Both the position numbers and the translations under genes were made by a program. A DNA stretch of 34,922 bases from a candidate division WWE3 bacterium (GTDB taxonomy: Bacteria > Patescibacteriota > WWE3 > UBA101185 > UBA10185). The DNA lies in assembly GCA_012798315.1 (NCBI GenBank), contig JAAZNL010000058.1:1-34922 (forward strand), in the 5' to 3' direction. This document shows, piece by piece, positions 2,429 to 20,804 of this stretch; the first letter of the stretch is position 1; each line of letters starts with the position of its first letter. The notes below the pieces were generated by a model. The model was not told the DNA's origin, made no database searches, and saw nothing but the letters and a program-made list of their open reading frames with translations.

Positions 2429-2659
2429 ATGGAACCAGAATTTGACGACGAATCAGAAACGAAAGGAAATGATAAAAAATTTCATGGGCGCCATCACGAT
2501 AGAGATGGAGAGTGTGAGCACGACCATCCTCATCATGGACCGGGCCACGGGCCACGACCTGAACTTCCTCCCCATTTGTTTAGAGAAATCATGGATATGA
2601 AGGAAAAAATCGGAAAGCTTGAAGGGATGGTGGAAGTTATTCTAAAGAAATTAGATTAA
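2429..2659 (+). CDS. Small His-rich, acidic protein with C-terminal coiled coil
   Basis: A 76-residue protein not recognised as a named family. The N-terminal half is charged and His-rich (GRHHDRDGECEHDHPHHGPG within residues 17-45, one Cys), suggesting metal binding. The last 30 residues (MDMKEKIGKLEGMVEVILKKLD) have heptad spacing of hydrophobics and look like a short coiled coil or oligomerisation helix. The start is secure: a near-perfect anti-16S match AAAGGAGGTGA lies at 2412-2422, 6 nt from the ATG, much stronger than most genes here. No signal peptide, so cytoplasmic. The divergent arrangement with the SGNH gene suggests separate control. Metal binding is inference. Confidence 0.8.
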   Translation: MEPEFDDESETKGNDKKFHGRHHDRDGECEHDHPHHGPGHGPRPELPPHLFREIMDMKEKIGKLEGMVEVILKKLD

Positions 2660-2704
2660 CGTTGATTGATCATCGTGTGGTAAAAGTTTATTATCTATAT
2701 ATAC

Positions 2705-4948
2705 ATGGATGAGACTCAAGATACACCGGTAGTACAACCGGATCCGCGAAAAGAACAGGTAAAAAAGCATGTGAATTTAGTTGTTCTTGCTTTGGTGGCC
2801 TTTTTGTTACTCTCGGGCATAGCTGTTTTATACACAAATTTTCAACTTAAACGTCCTTCGAGAAACATGGGTAAAGAAACCGTAGCCGAAGATCTCAAGA
2901 AAGATGAAACAAGCCAAAATGCGGGACCCGCAGAACCCTTCGACGGAGTGTCGAATTTATCAGATGTAACTAATATAAGCGATTATAATTTCAGTAAAGA
3001 CGCCGGGGAGTTATTAGTCAAGAATAATTTTGTAGTAGTGCCCGCGCAAGATAAAGAGTTCTTTCCTTTTTACGAATCCAACCGTTACAGTATGTATCCA
3101 AACTTTATAACTACTGATGCTGTTTTACACAATTATCATCTTGTATTTAACTTTATACTTAAAAAATTGGAGCAAGATCAGCTTTATGAAATTGTCAAAA
3201 CTTTAAACTCAGAAATGCTAAACAAGGCAGTAAGTCAGTACAATATAGCGAGGGGTACTGACTGGGAAAATGCCGCAAAACGAAACGTTGCCTTTTTTGC
3301 TGTAGGCAGTAAGCTGTTGGATTCCAAAGTGAGCGTGCCAGCCATAGTAAACGATGTAGTAAATCAGGAACTTTCCCTTATAGAAAAGCACGACGGAATT
3401 ACCGAATCACCTGTCTTAAATCTTGGAGCAAATATTTCTGATAAGATTTCCACACCGCAGGGGGATTTATCCTTAGAAGGTTTAAAAGAAGATTATACAC
3501 AATATGTTCCCCGCGGTCATTACGATCAAAACGAGACACTTAAAGCATACTTTAAAAGCATGATGTGGTACGGAAGAGCAACTTTCAGACTTAAAAACGA
3601 AGACGAAACTAAATCCGCCATCTTGATTAGTATCGCGCTAAACAACAGTAACTCTAACCAAAAATGGACAAAGATTTTCGATACTGTTAACTTTTTCGTT
3701 GGACAAACTGATGACATAAACTATACCCAGTACAAAAAACTCATAGCGGAAAGCTTTGGTGATCCTGCAAACGAGGCCAGTGTTATAGCAAACAAGGAGG
3801 GTTTTAAAACCTTTTTAACAAAAGCGGCATCATTGGAATCTCCTCAAATAAATTCCATACCAATTTTAGACCGTATGTTACAACCGGATAGGGATAAAGA
3901 AATCAAAGGTTTTAGATATATGGGTCAGCGGTACACAATAGACGCGTCAGTTATGCAAAAACTGGTTTACAGAGATGTATTAAAAAACCCCAACGAAAAA
4001 TTACGATATTTACCAAAAGGTTTAGATGTTGCAGCTGCGATGGGATCAGAAGAGGCGTATAACATTTTAAAAGATATGAAGGAGACAGATTACAAAGGTT
4101 ATCCGGAAAATATGCAAAAACTCCGGGATCATATCCAAAATAATATACCTCAATCCGTTTGGACTTCTAATTTATACTGGAGCTGGATGTATACGCTTAA
4201 TACTTTAGTCGGGGCGGTATCGGAAAAGTCACCATCATTTATGAAATCAACAGCGTGGCTTCACAAACAGTTAAACACATATTTAGCAAGCTGGACCGAA
4301 CTTAAACATGACACTATATTGTACGCTAAACAAGTTTATGCGGAAATGGGCGGAGGGCAGCCGGAAGAAAAAGATGATAGAGGTTATGTTGAGCCAAATC
4401 CGGAACTTTACAAGCGTTTAGGAAATTTAATAGAGCTGACAAACACGGAACTAACTAAACGAAACATGCTTTCATCTGCTACAGGGGATATTTTATCGAA
4501 AATGCAATTATTGGTGAACAACCTGGAAACAATCTCTAACAAAGAATTAAACGGCCAGGAACTAAGCGAAGCAGATTATAACGTTATTCGCGATTTTGGC
4601 GGCTCCATAGAACACTTTTGGTATGAAGTAAATAAAGAGGACATTGGTGATCAAAACACCGGAAGCTATCTCGATGACAATCCCTCGTCTCTTGTGGCGG
4701 ACGTGGCTACCGATCCGAACGGCGAGGTTTTAGAGGAAGGCACCGGAAGAGTTTTTCATATTTATGCTATAGTACCCGTGGACGGGAAACTAAGAATAGC
4801 CAGCGGGACTGTATTTTCTTATTATGAATTTCCTTGGCCAATTAACGACCGTCTGACCGACAAAAAGTGGAACGAAATGCTTGATTCGAAGAATGCTCCG
4901 GAATTACCAGAATGGACAAAAACCTTTATCGGAAAATCGCTTTATTAA
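2705..4948 (+). CDS. DUF3160 domain protein, membrane-anchored
   Basis: A 747-residue protein with a short cytoplasmic N-terminus, one transmembrane helix near residues 25-46 and a large extracytoplasmic domain. The segment FPFYESNRYSMYPNFITTD followed by AVLHNYHLVFNFILKKLE is the recognisable start of DUF3160, a family of large secreted or anchored proteins of unknown function common in CPR bacteria and some archaea. The C-terminus (FHIYAIVPVDGKLRIASG, then SYYEFPWP) also fits DUF3160. Its 3' end overlaps the CapA-like gene by 37 bp, so the two form an operon and may act on the same cell-surface material. Function unknown. Confidence 0.85.
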   Translation: MDETQDTPVVQPDPRKEQVKKHVNLVVLALVAFLLLSGIAVLYTNFQLKRPSRNMGKETVAEDLKKDETSQNAGPAEPFDGVSNLSDVTNISDYNFSKDAGELLVKNNFVVVPAQDKEFFPFYESNRYSMYPNFITTDAVLHNYHLVFNFILKKLEQDQLYEIVKTLNSEMLNKAVSQYNIARGTDWENAAKRNVAFFAVGSKLLDSKVSVPAIVNDVVNQELSLIEKHDGITESPVLNLGANISDKISTPQGDLSLEGLKEDYTQYVPRGHYDQNETLKAYFKSMMWYGRATFRLKNEDETKSAILISIALNNSNSNQKWTKIFDTVNFFVGQTDDINYTQYKKLIAESFGDPANEASVIANKEGFKTFLTKAASLESPQINSIPILDRMLQPDRDKEIKGFRYMGQRYTIDASVMQKLVYRDVLKNPNEKLRYLPKGLDVAAAMGSEEAYNILKDMKETDYKGYPENMQKLRDHIQNNIPQSVWTSNLYWSWMYTLNTLVGAVSEKSPSFMKSTAWLHKQLNTYLASWTELKHDTILYAKQVYAEMGGGQPEEKDDRGYVEPNPELYKRLGNLIELTNTELTKRNMLSSATGDILSKMQLLVNNLETISNKELNGQELSEADYNVIRDFGGSIEHFWYEVNKEDIGDQNTGSYLDDNPSSLVADVATDPNGEVLEEGTGRVFHIYAIVPVDGKLRIASGTVFSYYEFPWPINDRLTDKKWNEMLDSKNAPELPEWTKTFIGKSLY

Positions 4949-6615
4949 TATTCTTTCTTTTAATTCTCATAACTGCCGGTATATTTTTTAATATCCAAAA
5001 ATTCGACCGATCCAAAAGTACCGCGATTACAGCCGACACTACTAACGCACAAGAGTTAAGTCTTCAATTTTTAGAATTTAAAAAAAACAAACTTGCACTT
5101 CTAAACACAGAAACAACTGCGTCCTTTATTGCCGTAGGGGATATTTCTTTTTCTCGCGGTGTGGAAAGAGTTGTTAAATATCAAAAAAACATAAATTTTC
5201 CTTTTTTAAAAACTAAGGAAATTTTAAGTAACGCTGACATAACTTATGCCAACCTGGAGACACCTATAACCTACGGACCGGAAGTTCCGGACGGTTCCAT
5301 GATTTTCAGATCAAATCCCGGAACGGAACTGGCATTAAAATGGGCGGGGATCGACGTTGTAAATTTAGCAAATAATCACAGTTATAACTTTGATAAGGAA
5401 GGCCTGAGGGATACTTTCAAATTTTTGCGAGATGCCGATATTCAGTACGCCGGGGCGGGGGACAATAGTACACAGGCATACACACCGGTGCTTATTCAAA
5501 AAAACGGAATCAAGTTTGCATTGCTTTCGTACGAATCTATGGATATTGTTCCAAATGAATACGAAGCAGAAGAAAATAAACCGGGCATTGCATTTATGCG
5601 AATTGATAAAATGCAGGAATCGGTGAAAAAGGCAAAAACTTTGGCCGATGTGGTTATAGTAGCTATGCACGCGGGGGAAGAATATGTTCCGTTAGGAAAT
5701 GATTTACAAACAAATTTTGCTCACGCTGCCATAGACGCCGGAGCAGAAGTTGTAATAGGAGATCATCCGCATGTTATTCAAAATGCAGAAGTTTATAAAG
5801 AAAAAATTATTTTTTACAATTTGGGTAATTTTGTTATGGATCAAATGTGGTCAGATGATACACGCAGAGCATTAATATTTGAAGGAATATTTACAAAAAA
5901 GGGGTTAGAAAAATTTTATGTTACTCCGGTACAAATTGAGCATTATTCTCAGCCAAATCCTGTTACAGGAGAATTAGCCGATACAATTGTAAATAGACTA
6001 CAGCTCAGCATGCAAAAGGAATACACAGTAGATTACGATAAAATTCTAGAATCGTATGTAAAAACACCAAAATTTGCATACACAACAGTTCTAGGAAATA
6101 CCACAAAAGATCGGACACCTTCAGAAAAGAATATTATTACAAATTTAGACAAAGATACAGATTACGAAAATATATTGCTTAAAAATGGGCAGGTGCAAAT
6201 TATATCTGGTAAACAATTGTTGTGGACCTCACCGGAAAATTGGTGGGTTGATGATGTGATAGTTGAAAAATCCCTGAACGACGAAAGAACTCTAGTTAAT
6301 ATGTCAGTTTGGAAAGAAGGTAATTTTGGAAAGTCTAAACCTTTGTGGGAAACAGAAGACGATAACTCGATTAAAAATCATATGTTTGTATTCGCTCTGG
6401 AAAATAAAATGCTAAAACATATATGGCAGTCGTCAAATCTCCCGGTTCCAAACTGCAAAATAGAATTTAGGGATATAGAAGGGGATGGATCAGTGGAACT
6501 CATTGCGTACGAAGGCGATTACCAAAACGCTCCATTATGTACTGCAGCACACATTGCAGTGTTTAGATGGAAAGAATGGGGATTTTATAATCAGTGGCGT
6601 GAAAGTATAAATTAG
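4912..6615 (+). CDS. CapA-family protein (PGA_cap metallophosphatase fold) with C-terminal extension
   Basis: A 567-residue protein with an N-terminal membrane anchor (about residues 8-26). Residues about 70-350 form the CapA/PGA_cap domain: FIAVGDISFSRGVE, then ANLETPIT, NLANNHSYNF, AMHAGEEY and GDHPHVIQNAEVY followed by LGNFVMDQ. These carry the Asp, Asn and His metal ligands of the calcineurin-like fold. CapA is linked to poly-gamma-glutamate capsule export or anchoring, but most CPR members have no proven substrate. The last roughly 200 residues resemble no capsule protein I know and may form a beta-rich domain. It overlaps the upstream DUF3160 gene by 37 bp; ATG at 4912 is the first workable start. 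Confidence 0.85.
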   Translation: MDKNLYRKIALLIFFLLILITAGIFFNIQKFDRSKSTAITADTTNAQELSLQFLEFKKNKLALLNTETTASFIAVGDISFSRGVERVVKYQKNINFPFLKTKEILSNADITYANLETPITYGPEVPDGSMIFRSNPGTELALKWAGIDVVNLANNHSYNFDKEGLRDTFKFLRDADIQYAGAGDNSTQAYTPVLIQKNGIKFALLSYESMDIVPNEYEAEENKPGIAFMRIDKMQESVKKAKTLADVVIVAMHAGEEYVPLGNDLQTNFAHAAIDAGAEVVIGDHPHVIQNAEVYKEKIIFYNLGNFVMDQMWSDDTRRALIFEGIFTKKGLEKFYVTPVQIEHYSQPNPVTGELADTIVNRLQLSMQKEYTVDYDKILESYVKTPKFAYTTVLGNTTKDRTPSEKNIITNLDKDTDYENILLKNGQVQIISGKQLLWTSPENWWVDDVIVEKSLNDERTLVNMSVWKEGNFGKSKPLWETEDDNSIKNHMFVFALENKMLKHIWQSSNLPVPNCKIEFRDIEGDGSVELIAYEGDYQNAPLCTAAHIAVFRWKEWGFYNQWRESIN

Positions 6616-6655
6616 CATATATTAAAATTATTTAGTAAAATAGACTAACGCCTAT

Positions 6656-7069
6656 ATGAAACTACGCGTTAGACTTATAGTTTTACTTATATTCATCTTC
6701 GCAATAGCTCTGTCTGGGTTTGCCGTTTTGCGTTCCGAGCAGGAAAAAAGACTACGAAAATATTTGGCTGAGAAGGATTATTATTCCAGCCAATACAATG
6801 CTTGGTTAACATACAAAAAAGAATACCAGGATCAAATTACCAGACTGGCCGAGGAAAACAGAACCACAATGGCCAAAACTAAAGCAGATTATGAAATGTT
6901 ATTAGCACAACAATCGGACTTGATAAAAGAACACACCAGAACACAATTGGACGGCACTCAAAACACGGCATCTTCACAAGGCGGTTCGATTACTTCCTCC
7001 AATCAGACATCAACCCAAACAGTAAAAGTAACAAGGCCGGTCTCTAAGCCAAAAACAAGGACCTCATAA
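6656..7069 (+). CDS. Hypothetical single-pass membrane protein with coiled coil
   Basis: A 137-residue protein of unknown function. Residues 5-25 form a transmembrane helix preceded by basic residues (N-in). Residues 28-95 are rich in Glu, Lys, Ala and Leu and read as a coiled coil. The last 40 residues are a Ser/Thr/Gln-rich tail ending in basic residues, probably disordered. A TAAAAT box lies at 6636-6641, so this is likely the first gene of the operon running to 10195; the next gene starts 1 bp after its stop. The topology suggests an extracytoplasmic scaffold, but no family could be assigned. Confidence 0.65.
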   Translation: MKLRVRLIVLLIFIFAIALSGFAVLRSEQEKRLRKYLAEKDYYSSQYNAWLTYKKEYQDQITRLAEENRTTMAKTKADYEMLLAQQSDLIKEHTRTQLDGTQNTASSQGGSITSSNQTSTQTVKVTRPVSKPKTRTS

Positions 7070-12529: not shown

Positions 12530-12605
12530 CGGGGTGTGGCTCAGTTGGTAGAGTGCGCGGTTTGGGACCGTGAGGTCGGCGGTTCGAGTCCGCCCACCCC
12601 GACCA
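12530..12605 (+). tRNA. tRNA-Pro (anticodon TGG)
   Basis: Cloverleaf by eye: acceptor CGGGGTG pairs with CACCCCG, discriminator A, CCA encoded. D-stem GCTC/GAGT with GTTGGTA loop; anticodon stem CGCGG/CCGTG around loop TTTGGGA (anticodon TGG); T-stem GGCGG/CCGCC around TTCGAGT. A TAGAAT -10 box lies at 12498-12503. The last 16 bases (12590-12605) reappear with one mismatch at 15235-15250. Confidence 0.95.
12590..12605 (+). repeat. Direct repeat, left copy: tRNA-Pro 3' end (attL-like)
   Basis: CCGCCCACCCCGACCA is the T-stem, acceptor and CCA end of tRNA-Pro. It matches 15235-15250 at 15 of 16 positions in the same orientation. Integrases commonly use tRNA 3' ends as attachment sites and duplicate them on insertion. 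Confidence 0.6.
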
Positions 12606-12644: not shown

Positions 12645-13367
12645 TTACTTACTGTTATAATCAATAAACGAGTGAATATCTACATTTTTATCGAATAGAT
12701 ATTCTTTCCATTTAGGTAATAGATTCATTTCAATTTCACGTAAGTACGCATGGCCTACAACTTCTCCATTGCAGATAAAATATTCGCCACCATTATTTAA
12801 TCTAACGCGCAATTCATTATCTGTTATAAGCTCAATAACAGCATGTTCTAAATCCGAACTCGAAAAAACACCGTGTAGATACTCATGAGCTAAATATACT
12901 AGACTATAATTAGGCCAATCTTCTTCATGACCCCACGCAAATTTGTATCTGCCCAAATGTCTTCCAATATGAACTAAATTCCCCATAACATAAACTGTAA
13001 AAGTATCTTTTGGTAAATCCACTTTCATAATGTCCTTAAGTTCTTTTTCTACTTTTTCTTTATTGTTCATCCATTCTTTTTCTAGCCAGGTTTTATACTC
13101 CTTTGCGTTTTGTAATAGTAGGAGAAACTTGTCCGATTTCATTCCTTCACTCATAAGTAGTTTTACTTCTTCTGTAGCTTTCTCTAGAACTCTCTCTGAA
13201 TCTTCTGTCGCAAAGATACTTTCCGCATTCCCTTGGAGTAGTTGGTAGCCCAGCCGGTATTTATCCCACAACTCGTTTTGTAAATCAACCCAACCTTCGA
13301 TTTTTGCACTTTTTATTAGTGCTGTTACAAAAAGTGCTTGTTTTGAGATAACGAATTTTAATTCCAT
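12645..13367 (-). CDS. Putative zinc metallopeptidase-like protein (HExxH)
   Basis: A 240-residue protein with no family I can name. The LAHEYLHGVF segment holds an HExxH zinc site (His161, Glu162, His165), and Glu179 in VIELITDNELR, 14 residues downstream, is a plausible third ligand as in gluzincins. No signal peptide or transmembrane segment, so cytoplasmic. A TACAAT box (13374-13379) lies 6 nt before the ATG without a Shine-Dalgarno sequence, indicating its own leaderless promoter. It lies inside the repeat-bounded island next to the Cys-rich peptide and radical SAM gene, so it could be the peptide's leader protease, but its separate promoter weakens that link. Confidence 0.6.
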   Translation of the reverse strand: MELKFVISKQALFVTALIKSAKIEGWVDLQNELWDKYRLGYQLLQGNAESIFATEDSERVLEKATEEVKLLMSEGMKSDKFLLLLQNAKEYKTWLEKEWMNNKEKVEKELKDIMKVDLPKDTFTVYVMGNLVHIGRHLGRYKFAWGHEEDWPNYSLVYLAHEYLHGVFSSSDLEHAVIELITDNELRVRLNNGGEYFICNGEVVGHAYLREIEMNLLPKWKEYLFDKNVDIHSFIDYNSK

Positions 13368-13399
13368 ATAATAATTGTAAACTAATTTTAAAAAGTATA

Positions 13400-13441
13400 A
13401 GTGTGTTTACATTGAATCTTCCGAAACTATGTAAACACACT
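13400..13441 (-). terminator. Hairpin terminator after the Cys-rich peptide gene
   Basis: AGTGTGTTTACAT (13400-13412) and ATGTAAACACACT (13429-13441) form a perfect 13-bp stem with a 16-nt loop. Read on the minus strand, it is followed by TATACTTTTT, a weak U-tract. It lies just after the peptide gene's stop and before the HExxH gene's promoter. Confidence 0.6.
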
Positions 13442-13457
13442 CTTGGCAAAAATGCCG

Positions 13458-13610
13458 TTACGCCTGATCGGGTTTGCAGATGCTGTCCGGTTGGCATTCC
13501 TTGCTAGGGCTGCAGTTGATCGGATGGCATGTGGGCTGACACGAAGCACATGCTGGTGCAACTGTAACCAACTCGATTGTGGGCTCTTCCACAACATTTT
13601 GTGTGTTCAA
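13458..13610 (-). CDS. Cys-rich small peptide, putative RiPP precursor
   Basis: A 50-residue peptide starting at TTG (13610), chosen because AAGGAGGTGAG lies at 13617-13627, 6 nt upstream. The frame also runs back to a TTG at 13667 inside the radical SAM gene, but that start has no ribosome site. The first 19 residues (MNTQNVVEEPTIELVTVAP) are Cys-free and acidic, like a leader. The rest has six Cys with growing gaps (CX2CX3CX4CX5CX5C), and five of the six are in C-x-P units (CQP, CHP, CSP, CQP, CKP). It lies directly downstream of a radical SAM/SPASM gene on the same strand. It is probably the substrate for thioether formation or a related Cys modification; the mature product is unknown. Confidence 0.72.
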   Translation of the reverse strand: MNTQNVVEEPTIELVTVAPACASCQPTCHPINCSPSKECQPDSICKPDQA

Positions 13611-13656
13611 GTAAATCTCACCTCCTTCCAACACATAGTGTAGTACAGCGTGTTTA

Positions 13657-15051
13657 CTAATGCGCAACTTGGGCGGTCACCGATTCGGACATAGTACGAG
13701 CAACTTCTTGGATTTCAGCTGCCAAAGTCCGATCGTAGAATGCATATCCCAACTCATCAACTTTCCATAAACCTTGCCCCCATTCTCCAGTGTAAGGGTT
13801 GTATGTACATCTTGGATATGGAGCAGTGAGATAGCCTGCATTTCCAGCGGAAGCACCTTCGGATAGCGGTCTGCAATCAAAACAGACGTATCTGTACTCA
13901 CAATCACGACAGACCATAACCCCATCTTTTGTTGCACGCCAAATACGAGTAAGTACAGGTTCTCTCAGGACACTTTCTAGGCTTGGTGCAACAAGCACAT
14001 TTCCCACGACATTGTCATGTGAAAAGATGCATGGTAAAACCTCACCAAACTCAGTCACCGTTATCTTACCCAATAGGCACGAGTGCCCAGAGGAGTAGTG
14101 GGAAACAGTATCGGTCTCGGCAGTAAAGTTTGGTTTTAACATCAAACCATAACGTACCACGTACTCAAAGTCAGGCTGAAGTAGTGGATTTACTCCACGG
14201 CCTTTTGGACGCAGTGGATCTGGATGTCGACCGACAACGTCAAGCGTTTCTTTAAGAGCTGTGGTTTCTGCTATCGTTTCCTGATTCCTCTTCATCAGTA
14301 CTGTTTCAACGCGCAATGGGACACTAGCTTCCTTGAGCCATTGGATCGCTCGCATGGTTTTGGCATGGCTTCCGGGTGTTCGCGTTACGAGATCATGTGT
14401 AGACGGATCACTTGAATACAGCGAAATTGCTACATGCACGCCGAGGGTTTTTATAAGCTTCACCTTCTCAGGTGTTAACAAGGTGCCGTTGGAGTAAATT
14501 TCAACACGTGTGTAACCAAGCTCCACCAAGTACTGAGCAAGATCCAATAATGTTTCTCCATTTTCACCTTTGTACAAAAATGGCTCGCCACCGATAAGCT
14601 GACCAGCCCGGCAACCGAGATCGTAGGCTTCTTTCATCAATCGTAGCCAATCGGAGTGTCGCATCTTCTTACGTTCAGGTTGTGCTATCAGCTCTTGTAG
14701 TGCATTTTCAGCAAAACCCATCTCTTTGCGATAAGTCCTTGGCATTGAACCGGCGTAGCAATGTTCACAACACTCGTTGCAGTCATCCGTTACCACTTCA
14801 AACCACACGAATTTTAATCTTTCGGTGTCTTTCAGTGGTTGAATCGCGGAAATCCCGGGGGACGATACACAGGTTTCTGCGAGACCCATTTGTACCAATT
14901 GCCCCCAATATGTATTGTTCTCTGAGCGATAATTGACTATCTGGCAGGCTATTCCATTTACGGAATAGACAAGACCGGAATTTGTATCAAGAATCGCACC
15001 TCTTGTGGCACCTTCTACCAAATAAACTCCGTCTTTAAGCCTGTAAGGCAT
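13657..15051 (-). CDS. Radical SAM/SPASM peptide maturase
   Basis: A 464-residue protein. Residues 1-60 (DGVYLVEGATRGAILDTNSG) resemble the small N-terminal recognition region of peptide-modifying radical SAM enzymes such as the grasp-with-spasm type. The radical SAM site is CX3CX2C (Cys91, Cys95, Cys98), followed by GGEP at 154-157. A SPASM-type C-terminus has Cys325, Cys341, Cys381, Cys384, Cys390, Cys393 and Cys415, enough for two auxiliary [4Fe-4S] clusters. SPASM enzymes modify ribosomal peptides, and the Cys-rich peptide follows 46 bp downstream. AAAGGAG precedes the ATG. No transporter or dedicated protease is adjacent. It appears richer in G+C than its neighbours, suggesting transfer. 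Confidence 0.88.
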   Translation of the reverse strand: MPYRLKDGVYLVEGATRGAILDTNSGLVYSVNGIACQIVNYRSENNTYWGQLVQMGLAETCVSSPGISAIQPLKDTERLKFVWFEVVTDDCNECCEHCYAGSMPRTYRKEMGFAENALQELIAQPERKKMRHSDWLRLMKEAYDLGCRAGQLIGGEPFLYKGENGETLLDLAQYLVELGYTRVEIYSNGTLLTPEKVKLIKTLGVHVAISLYSSDPSTHDLVTRTPGSHAKTMRAIQWLKEASVPLRVETVLMKRNQETIAETTALKETLDVVGRHPDPLRPKGRGVNPLLQPDFEYVVRYGLMLKPNFTAETDTVSHYSSGHSCLLGKITVTEFGEVLPCIFSHDNVVGNVLVAPSLESVLREPVLTRIWRATKDGVMVCRDCEYRYVCFDCRPLSEGASAGNAGYLTAPYPRCTYNPYTGEWGQGLWKVDELGYAFYDRTLAAEIQEVARTMSESVTAQVAH

Positions 15052-15234: not shown

Positions 15235-15250
15235 CCGCCCACCCCAACCA
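15235..15250 (+). repeat. Direct repeat, right copy of the tRNA-Pro 3' end (attR-like)
   Basis: CCGCCCACCCCAACCA differs from the tRNA-Pro 3' end only at the last acceptor base (A for G). The bases before it (AGTTCCACT) also resemble the T-loop side (GGTTCGAGT) with a one-base insertion. The rest of a tRNA is absent. The repeats enclose about 2.6 kb with three genes. The wider non-coding stretch 15052-15348 otherwise holds the radical SAM leader, the inverted repeat and a terminator. Confidence 0.6.
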
Positions 15251-19365: not shown

Positions 19366-20196
19366 ATGCCAAATAAAAAACGTGTATTCTTTTTAAAAAA
19401 TGGCAGAGAGTTGAAAAACTCTATCGCTGATTGTTTCATCCGACAAAATGAATCTATTACATCTTTATTTGATTCGACTGCTATTTCTTCTGTGATCTCT
19501 AAAAGCAGTCAAATAATTAAGCCGGGTATTTTATTTAAACTTGGAAAAGAACTTTCCAAAAGTAAAAACGTTTTAAGCAGTTTAACACGCAACTATAAAC
19601 CCGCACATATATGGGCGTTTTCTTCTTTTTTTATGTTTACCGCAGCTACACTAATTTTTTTATTATTACCGTGGAAAGTTAAGCCGTTACAGCAAGATAA
19701 ATACTCAATATATGCGTCTACACCTTTAACCTTAAAGGATATGTCGTATTCTATTTATACCAGAGACTCCCGAGCTCAAAAGATTAATGCTGTTTTTAAA
19801 GAGTACAAATGCCCGTTGGAGGGCTTGGGCGAAGTTTTTGTCTACGAAGCGGATAAATACAATATTCCATGGTGGCTGGTTGCAGCCGTATCGTTCCAGG
19901 AATCAACCTGCGGCAAACGTACGCCTGAACCATCCGGTTTGGAGTCGTACAATGCGTGGGGTTGGGCAGTTTACGGGGATAATGTTCAGACGTTTGATAA
20001 CTGGGTAAGGGGAATTGAAACCGTTTCAGAATACATGTCTGAAAACTTCTATCAAAAAGGTGTGACCGAGCCATGTGAAATTATGAAGACATACACACCA
20101 CCATCCAAAGGTTCCTGGTGCGAAGGCGTAATGAATTTTGGCGATCAAATTCAGAATTATTCCACATCGGAAGAATCCGAAATAGTCAGTCTATAG
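19366..20196 (+). CDS. Membrane-anchored lysozyme-like (putative peptidoglycan hydrolase) protein, copy 1
   Basis: A 276-residue protein. About 80 charged cytoplasmic residues precede a transmembrane helix (about 83-102). The outer domain (from about 140) has IPWWLVAAVSFQESTCGKR, the ES-x-CG pattern of SLT/glucosaminidase-type lysozyme-like domains with Glu as candidate catalytic acid, then YNAWGWAVYGDNVQTFDNW and YTPPSKGSWCEGV. Likely cleaves glycan strands of peptidoglycan. The next gene is a clear paralogue of the outer domain. The long cytoplasmic N-terminus of copy 1 is unusual for such an enzyme. Confidence 0.7.
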   Translation: MPNKKRVFFLKNGRELKNSIADCFIRQNESITSLFDSTAISSVISKSSQIIKPGILFKLGKELSKSKNVLSSLTRNYKPAHIWAFSSFFMFTAATLIFLLLPWKVKPLQQDKYSIYASTPLTLKDMSYSIYTRDSRAQKINAVFKEYKCPLEGLGEVFVYEADKYNIPWWLVAAVSFQESTCGKRTPEPSGLESYNAWGWAVYGDNVQTFDNWVRGIETVSEYMSENFYQKGVTEPCEIMKTYTPPSKGSWCEGVMNFGDQIQNYSTSEESEIVSL

Positions 20197-20234: not shown

Positions 20235-20804
20235 ATGAAACATTCATTAAAGGCTGTAATATCAGTATTACTGCCTGTTATCACGATACTTACCAGTTTG
20301 GTAGGCATCGACATTATAATAAGAAAAGAAGAAGCCAGGAAGCTTGCCAAGGCGGGAATTGTGTATTCTATTGAGTACAACAAAGTAGACAAGCAGCAAG
20401 TATTAGAAGAGTTCTTTGCCAAGTACAACTCACCTTTAAAGCCTTATGCCAAAGACTTTATTAAGGTCGCCGAAAAGTACGATATGGATTACAGGCTTTT
20501 GCCTTCTATATCCTGTATAGAATCATCCTGTGGTAAAAGACTAATACCCGGATCTTACAACCCTTTCGGGTGGGGGATTTATGGTACTAAAGTTACTACG
20601 TTTGATTCGTACTCTGAAGCCATTGAGGTAGTGGGTAAGGGTCTAAACGATAACTACATTAAAAAAGGTTACGATACGGTGGATAAAATAGCACCTATCT
20701 ATACGCCACCCGCTCACGCTCACTGGGCTAACTCGGTAAATTACTTTAGTAATCAAATTACGGCTATCGAAACAAAAGAGACTACGGACACAAGTCGTCT
20801 GTAG
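20235..20804 (+). CDS. Membrane-anchored lysozyme-like protein, copy 2
   Basis: A 189-residue paralogue of the preceding gene's outer domain. One N-terminal transmembrane helix (about 7-26), then LPSISCIESSCGKR with candidate catalytic Glu, NPFGWGIYGTKVTTFDSY and IYTPPAHAHWANSV, matching copy 1 in order and spacing. It lacks copy 1's long cytoplasmic region. A TATAAT box at 20223-20228 lies 6 nt before the ATG, so it has its own leaderless promoter. Its 3' end overlaps the convergent pseudopilin gene by 23 bp. Confidence 0.7.
   Translation: MKHSLKAVISVLLPVITILTSLVGIDIIIRKEEARKLAKAGIVYSIEYNKVDKQQVLEEFFAKYNSPLKPYAKDFIKVAEKYDMDYRLLPSISCIESSCGKRLIPGSYNPFGWGIYGTKVTTFDSYSEAIEVVGKGLNDNYIKKGYDTVDKIAPIYTPPAHAHWANSVNYFSNQITAIETKETTDTSRL

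Follow-up and report, generated by a model that had tools for sequence, protein, structure and literature searches.

The locus analysed here lies in a stretch of 34,922 nucleotides (hereafter, the window) from the 0.9 Mb genome of a candidate division WWE3 bacterium (G000, 98.6% complete), and it raises the question of whether a radical SAM/SPASM enzyme and the small Cys-rich peptide encoded beside it constitute a biosynthetic pair and, if so, of which kind. The reading supported below is that a cassette of three genes, encoding a maturase, a precursor peptide and an HExxH protein, represents a new family of radical-SAM/SPASM RiPPs with a candidate leader peptidase in CPR bacteria. This reading is considered likely, with a probability of about 0.75, in the absence of expression or mass data.

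The maturase gene (positions 13657 to 15051, reverse strand) starts with ATG and encodes a protein of 464 amino acids, for which membership in the radical SAM superfamily was established by a match to PF04055 (E 7.7e-20; 72.2 bits vs. a cut-off of 29.5). The motif C91-x3-C95-x2-C98 (14758–14781) and the motif GGEP at residues 154–157 (14581–14592) were located both in the sequence and in the alignment, as was a SPASM region (13807–14079) that contains exactly seven Cys between residues 325 and 415 (325, 341, 381, 384, 390, 393 and 415), all these features being on the reverse strand. The ligands of the radical SAM and SPASM clusters are invariant across 21 aligned sequences. The score against PF13186 (18.9 bits) was slightly under its cut-off (21.5), and assignment to the SPASM subfamily is met by the seven invariant C-terminal Cys and by fold matches to CteB and SuiB. 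An AlphaFold2 model (pLDDT 90.7) gave as best PDB folds SkfB (6efn, E 1e-17), SuiB and CteB (5wgg, 5why), with further matches to TigE, ChlB, EpeE and PqqE, and SkfB was also the best PDB match by sequence. All seven of these enzymes act on ribosomal peptides. Matches to anSME, MoaA and viperin were found as well, over the common radical SAM core. None of the NCBIfam equivalog cut-offs was reached, the nearest scores being those of heme b synthase (AhbD; 89.8 of 500 bits, a distant similarity with E 2.3e-25) and of the grasp-with-spasm maturase (TIGR04193; 72.9 of 175 bits). Among viral contigs, similarity to the maturase was limited to 26–27% identity in the radical SAM part, and the best rows from plasmids matched only in part, up to about 32%.

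The first 60 residues of the maturase (14872–15051, reverse strand) appear to be arranged as in RiPP recognition elements. In the model, strands at residues 9–13, 18–22 and 27–31 are followed by helices at 33–39 and 46–54, and matches to PqqD-type profiles were detected among family members, but these were weak (best E values 0.003 and 0.15), so that this domain is designated RRE-like and its binding of a leader is inferred. In CteB, the leader binds to an RRE-type domain as a beta strand (PMC8326336), and the alternating hydrophobic pattern of the stretch PTIELVT in the peptide described below would suit docking of this type.

The precursor gene of the window (13458–13610, reverse strand) encodes a peptide of 50 residues, with a TTG start at 13610 and a TAA stop at 13458, and is preceded by the ribosome-binding site AAGGAGGTGAG (13617–13627). 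Strong sites of a similar kind precede most peptide genes of the family. Residues 1–20 (13551–13610) form a leader with the conserved PTIELVT stretch, and residues 21–50 (13461–13550) form a core with six Cys spaced X2, X3, X4, X5 and X5, five of them in C-x-P. This number of C-x-P units was reached in only 6 of 200,000 shuffles of the same core. The closest relative of the maturase (82% identity) is encoded on contig QZJF01000017 of another WWE3 genome (locus L030, genome G022), where the ATG start of the peptide gene aligns with the TTG start in the window. Over the 16 comparable codons after the start, the two leaders differ by nine synonymous and no nonsynonymous changes, a pattern that shows purifying selection on the leader. 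An RNA hairpin with a 14-pair stem and a T-rich tail is predicted downstream of the precursor gene (13399–13442, reverse strand; −27 kcal/mol, z −5.5). It may be a terminator or a stabiliser of the 3′ end and, located as it is between the precursor and HExxH genes, it may set their relative expression.

To find relatives of this pair, CPR genomes were queried first with the enzyme and later with an alignment of ten members, in about 850 genome searches that included some genomes more than once. This yielded 21 unique full-length cassettes including that of the window, the relatives thus being found in 20 other CPR genomes, and all genomes with the cassette are apparently environmental assemblies. 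The maturases of 19 relatives in the alignment, from which locus L066 was omitted, are 37–82% identical to that of the window. Their distribution is sparse, as hits came from 11 of 380 genomes in a sample of the phylum (one of them with a divergent maturase, L047) and from 8 of 45 within the class, and it spans nine family-level groups.

A small open reading frame on the same strand and with C-x-P adjoins the full-length maturase in all 21 cassettes. In 19 of them it lies directly downstream, with gaps of −17 to 91 nt, and in the two loci with shuffled gene order (L023 and L026) it is found upstream, separated from the maturase by the HExxH gene. The rule had been fixed on the first 10 loci and was fitted by all 11 loci found later. 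A profile of the peptide detected one site in each of 9 out of 57 related genomes, and these were the same nine that carry a full-length maturase; as the profile was trained partly on the same peptides, independent evidence comes solely from the 48 remaining genomes, in which it detected nothing. Control loci around 12 other SPASM-like proteins had at most two C-x-P per small open reading frame. No transporter, heme, sulfatase or ATP-grasp gene was recurrent among the cassette neighbours. The sequence data therefore establish a 50-residue precursor gene with a selected leader and a C-x-P core, and a dedicated radical SAM/SPASM enzyme that always adjoins it. The genetic criterion for a RiPP system, namely linkage of a modifying enzyme to a dedicated precursor whose leader is conserved and whose core varies, is fulfilled, with modification of the core being inferred, and that the maturase and the C-x-P peptide are an enzyme–substrate pair is very likely, although no expression or mass data exist for it.

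Three loci deserve separate mention. The divergent maturase of L047 (35% identity) is not accompanied by a C-x-P array; a 48-codon frame (3000–3146) just over 100 nt downstream of it has a leader-like stretch, ANILLM, and a single C-x-P, was excluded from the counts and is possibly a diverged precursor. In L066, one TGA breaks the maturase frame (5465–6670) while the peptide and HExxH genes appear intact, for which an assembly error or recent decay are possible causes. L067 (108 bits) has no peptide and was used as outgroup.

An alternative to this enzyme–substrate pairing is that the maturase is a radical SAM enzyme with a function unrelated to RiPPs, such as an anaerobic sulfatase maturase or an enzyme of heme or cofactor synthesis, with the peptide being incidental. 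In its favour are the distant similarities to AhbD and to anSME structures mentioned above. Against it, scores for such enzymes are all far under the curated cut-offs, the anSME model is absent among the 25 NCBIfam models listed for the maturase, and neither a heme nor a sulfatase gene recurs near the cassettes. Furthermore, adjacency in 21 of 21 cases across nine family-level groups, with the order shuffled in two, argues against an incidental peptide. This alternative is thus strongly disfavoured and regarded as very unlikely.

The original prediction, made before any database search, had described the enzyme with its CX3CX2C, GGEP and seven C-terminal Cys, the TTG-initiated 50-codon peptide behind AAGGAGGTGAG on the same strand, its six Cys with their growing spacing, five of them in C-x-P, and the absence of an adjacent transporter, and all of this held for the window. 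It had also named two outcomes that would refute it, a peptide not conserved beside homologous enzymes or an enzyme belonging to a sulfatase-maturase or other non-RiPP family. Neither was obtained, as the peptide is conserved beside every full-length homologue and the enzyme met no named NCBIfam cut-off and folds like SkfB, SuiB and CteB. The reading as a RiPP is supported, whereas modification of the core, for which a loss of 2 Da per Cys had been anticipated, remains inferred without data. What did not hold was the growing Cys spacing as a signature, and the HExxH partner and the island-like boundaries described below had been missed.

Across the family, 136 of 141 core Cys are found within C-x-P, compared to 34 expected from shuffled cores, and the gaps between Cys range from 2 to 17, so that C-x-P, and not the growing spacing, is the conserved unit; the C-x-P repetition noted in the window is therefore the signature of the family. 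Nearly any residue is tolerated at x, D or N follows the Pro in 54 of 139 units, and no aromatic residue is conserved in the cores, conservation there falling on Cys and Pro. The number of units per peptide varies from 2 to 14 (the latter in L045), and the peptide of L058 has just two Cys, located in a Pro-rich tail, indicating that dense cross-linking is not universal. Among 8,942 stop-to-stop frames of 20–150 amino acids in the loci examined, only 21 had three or more C-x-P units and 20 of these were cassette peptides. The leader motif [PA]-[TE]-[IL]-x-L-V-[TS] is present in most members and eroded in L044, L046 and L060, and the likely start of the L024 peptide is GTG. Between the peptides of L062 and L066, dN was 0.028 and dS 0.223. 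None of 17 family peptides matched an NCBIfam model or gave a Pfam match above cut-off, and no report linking C-x-P to radical SAM or SPASM enzymes was found in the open-access literature searched, subscription papers being excluded. Thus, the precursor family is apparently undescribed, and its status as a new chemical class hinges on the type of linkage in a core whose modification is inferred.

A Cys-rich peptide of this kind could also be an unmodified, metallothionein-like metal binder that is sensed or repaired by the radical SAM enzyme, for which the presence of up to 14 C-x-P units in one peptide could be adduced. However, a short leader with a beta-strand pattern, a constant partner of maturase type, the invariant Pro and a number of Cys that falls to two all speak against this possibility, which is judged very unlikely.

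Returning to the peptide as substrate of the maturase, the third gene of the cassette (12645–13367, reverse strand) encodes a gluzincin-like HExxH protein of 240 amino acids (family A), a candidate leader peptidase with the motif HEYLH at residues 161–165 (12873–12887). It is shown that an HExxH protein usually adjoins precursor and maturase, as one does so in 17 of the 21 cassettes, from family A in six (including the window) and from a second family, B, in eleven, both families being absent from the other four. A single common family was rejected, as hhalign gave a probability of 1.8% for A vs. B. The HExxH motif and a downstream Glu are invariant and common to both. No Pfam family was matched by either, and nothing specific was detected above the NCBIfam or Pfam cut-offs. 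The model of family A (pLDDT 91.6) showed only a weak fold match to M4 (LasB) and M1 peptidases (E about 0.5). Family A is single-copy per genome among the 57 relatives and, in each of the six genomes with both, neighbours the maturase (hypergeometric 1.7e-4), and it also occurs in three genomes without a full-length maturase match. Family B was found in 2 of 145 genomes sampled from the phylum, beside the maturase in both. In one genome without a maturase match (L068), a family A gene (2563–3327) overlaps a different HExxH-like frame (3206–3970), so family A may have uses beyond the cassette.

In the maturase tree, the window groups with L030 as its sister (100/100), but their HExxH proteins belong to different families, A in the window and B in L030 (9803–10603), with no family A protein detected in G022 and no family B protein in G000. 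This is an apparent non-orthologous replacement, and the exchange of one HExxH protein for an unrelated one suggests the activity, most simply proteolysis, to be what matters. In the same sense, two families without detectable relationship that have HExxH plus a downstream Glu and occupy the same slot are indicative of metalloprotease activity. Removal of RiPP leaders by metalloproteases (families M1, M16, M50, M61 and M103) is known (PMC10885120), and in the cassettes HExxH or M16-type genes likewise lie beside the precursor, with the difference that neither A nor B matches a Pfam family. M16-like peptidase genes were observed near four maturase loci (L024, 5641–6897; L027, 2075–3367; L047, 2–1375; and L058, 2661–3962).

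Alternatively, rather than a leader peptidase, the HExxH protein might be a protease for immunity or detoxification, a protein targeted by the peptide or a further tailoring metalloenzyme. Location of its gene on the opposite strand in 12 of the 17 cassettes with family A or B would suit independent expression, and the resemblance of the family A fold to known peptidases is weak. On the other hand, the presence in one slot of two HExxH families without detectable relationship, the precedent of metalloprotease leader removal and the M16-like genes near four loci weigh against the alternative, which is given less credence than the preferred reading. A role as processing peptidase is favoured by a modest margin, as an inference whose support from fold comparison is weak.

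The cassette is bounded in the window by features reminiscent of an island. A tRNA-Pro (TGG) gene (12530–12605, forward strand), the presumed integration site, ends in CCGCCCACCCCGACCA (12590–12605), and a copy of this end matching in 15 of 16 nt, CCGCCCACCCCAACCA, is located just past the maturase gene (15235–15250, forward strand), as expected of direct repeats flanking a tRNA-integrated insert. Only three such sites were found in the whole genome at up to two mismatches, the third being on another contig. The 2.6 kb between the repeats contain the three cassette genes and no other substantial open reading frame, and no integrase frame was seen there. L030 is also near a tRNA-Pro, but a search around L030 and L029 for a repeat of the tRNA 3′ end gave none. 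The arrangement in the window looks like integration at the tRNA gene, an inference drawn from the repeat alone, without an integrase. Elsewhere in the window, two adjacent and apparently related small proteins (19366–20196 and 20235–20804) carry lysozyme-like motifs, ESTCGKRTPEPSG and ESSCGKRLIPGS.

Several known systems resemble the cassette in part. Ranthipeptides (PapA/PapB, SCIFF/CteA–CteB, NxxC) share with it a Cys-rich core, a short leader and a SPASM maturase, the differences being the CPR hosts, the HExxH partner and the absence of any matched NCBIfam family. PapB forms links between Cys and Asp within CX3D repeats (PMC9413430). The cassette cores show a tendency to C-x-P-[DN], but their constant partner is the Pro at +2 in place of an Asp at +4, and with position +3 being Asp or Asn in no more than the minority of units indicated above, the precursor does not match SCIFF, PapA-like or CX3D repeats. 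Sactipeptides (SkfA/SkfB, subtilosin/AlbA, ruminococcin C) also use Cys as donor, and SkfB is the closest structural match of the maturase; nevertheless, the latter did not meet the SkfB and AlbA equivalogs (47.2 of 300 and 46.8 of 850 bits), and sactipeptides are not known to contain a C-x-P repeat. The likeness to grasp-with-spasm systems covers residues 315–426, the SPASM end, below the cut-off, and lacks their recurrent ATP-grasp gene. Triceptides, GrrM-type cyclophanes and darobactin-type products are alike in having a three-residue unit and a SPASM enzyme (GrrM/OscB, 42.2 of 310 bits), but the cassette cores have Cys and no conserved aromatic residue at the first position, so they do not fulfil the sequence criterion of these groups. 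The cassette would work like ranthipeptide or sactipeptide systems, its modification being inferred, but it failed the sequence tests of membership that were run.

In the proposed mechanism, the leader strand (PTIELVT) would dock onto the RRE-like domain of the maturase, and the radical SAM cluster together with the SPASM clusters would generate a 5′-deoxyadenosyl radical for abstraction of hydrogen at an acceptor carbon close to each Cys. A thioether to the sulfur of that Cys would then be closed, one per C-x-P unit, with the Pro or a neighbour as acceptor, and the HExxH protein would finally cut off the leader. As Pro is the sole other invariant residue, it or the next residue is the most economical acceptor, though Pro might merely impose a turn. 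Cys-based thioether cross-links are on balance the better supported outcome, but they are inferred, unproven and without mass data.

An alternative to these cross-links is that the enzyme may modify the C-x-P peptide without forming thioethers, by epimerisation, by C–C or C–O bonds or by oxidation of Pro, leaving Cys as metal ligands or disulfide formers. This remains possible, given that SPASM-type enzymes also epimerise, with EpeE among the fold matches, that the invariance of Pro equals that of Cys (136 of 141) and that metal binding is feasible for Cys-rich peptides. Against it are the conservation of Cys throughout the family and the presence of the thioether-forming SkfB and CteB among the best matches. 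Cyclophane chemistry in particular is unlikely in the absence of a conserved aromatic residue, the window core having no W, F or Y at all. If thioethers are indeed formed, a bolder reading can be entertained as a possibility: a new RiPP class with repeated small thioether rings from Cys to the Pro at +2 or its neighbour, with interchangeable HExxH proteases, encoded by a cassette that is mobile among CPR. A Cys-to-Pro (+2) thioether linkage was not described in the open-access literature searched.

The invariant C-x-P unit offers a chemistry open to immediate test, and the interchangeable HExxH partners provide two new candidate families of leader-removing metalloproteases. Standard tools for finding biosynthetic clusters may report none in CPR bacteria, as was the case for the Patescibacteria in a study of deadwood (PMC11613949). 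CPR genomes are very small, and a recurrent compact RiPP cassette in them, if confirmed, would mean that these bacteria do produce dedicated modified peptides, possibly with a role in interactions with host cells or competitors.
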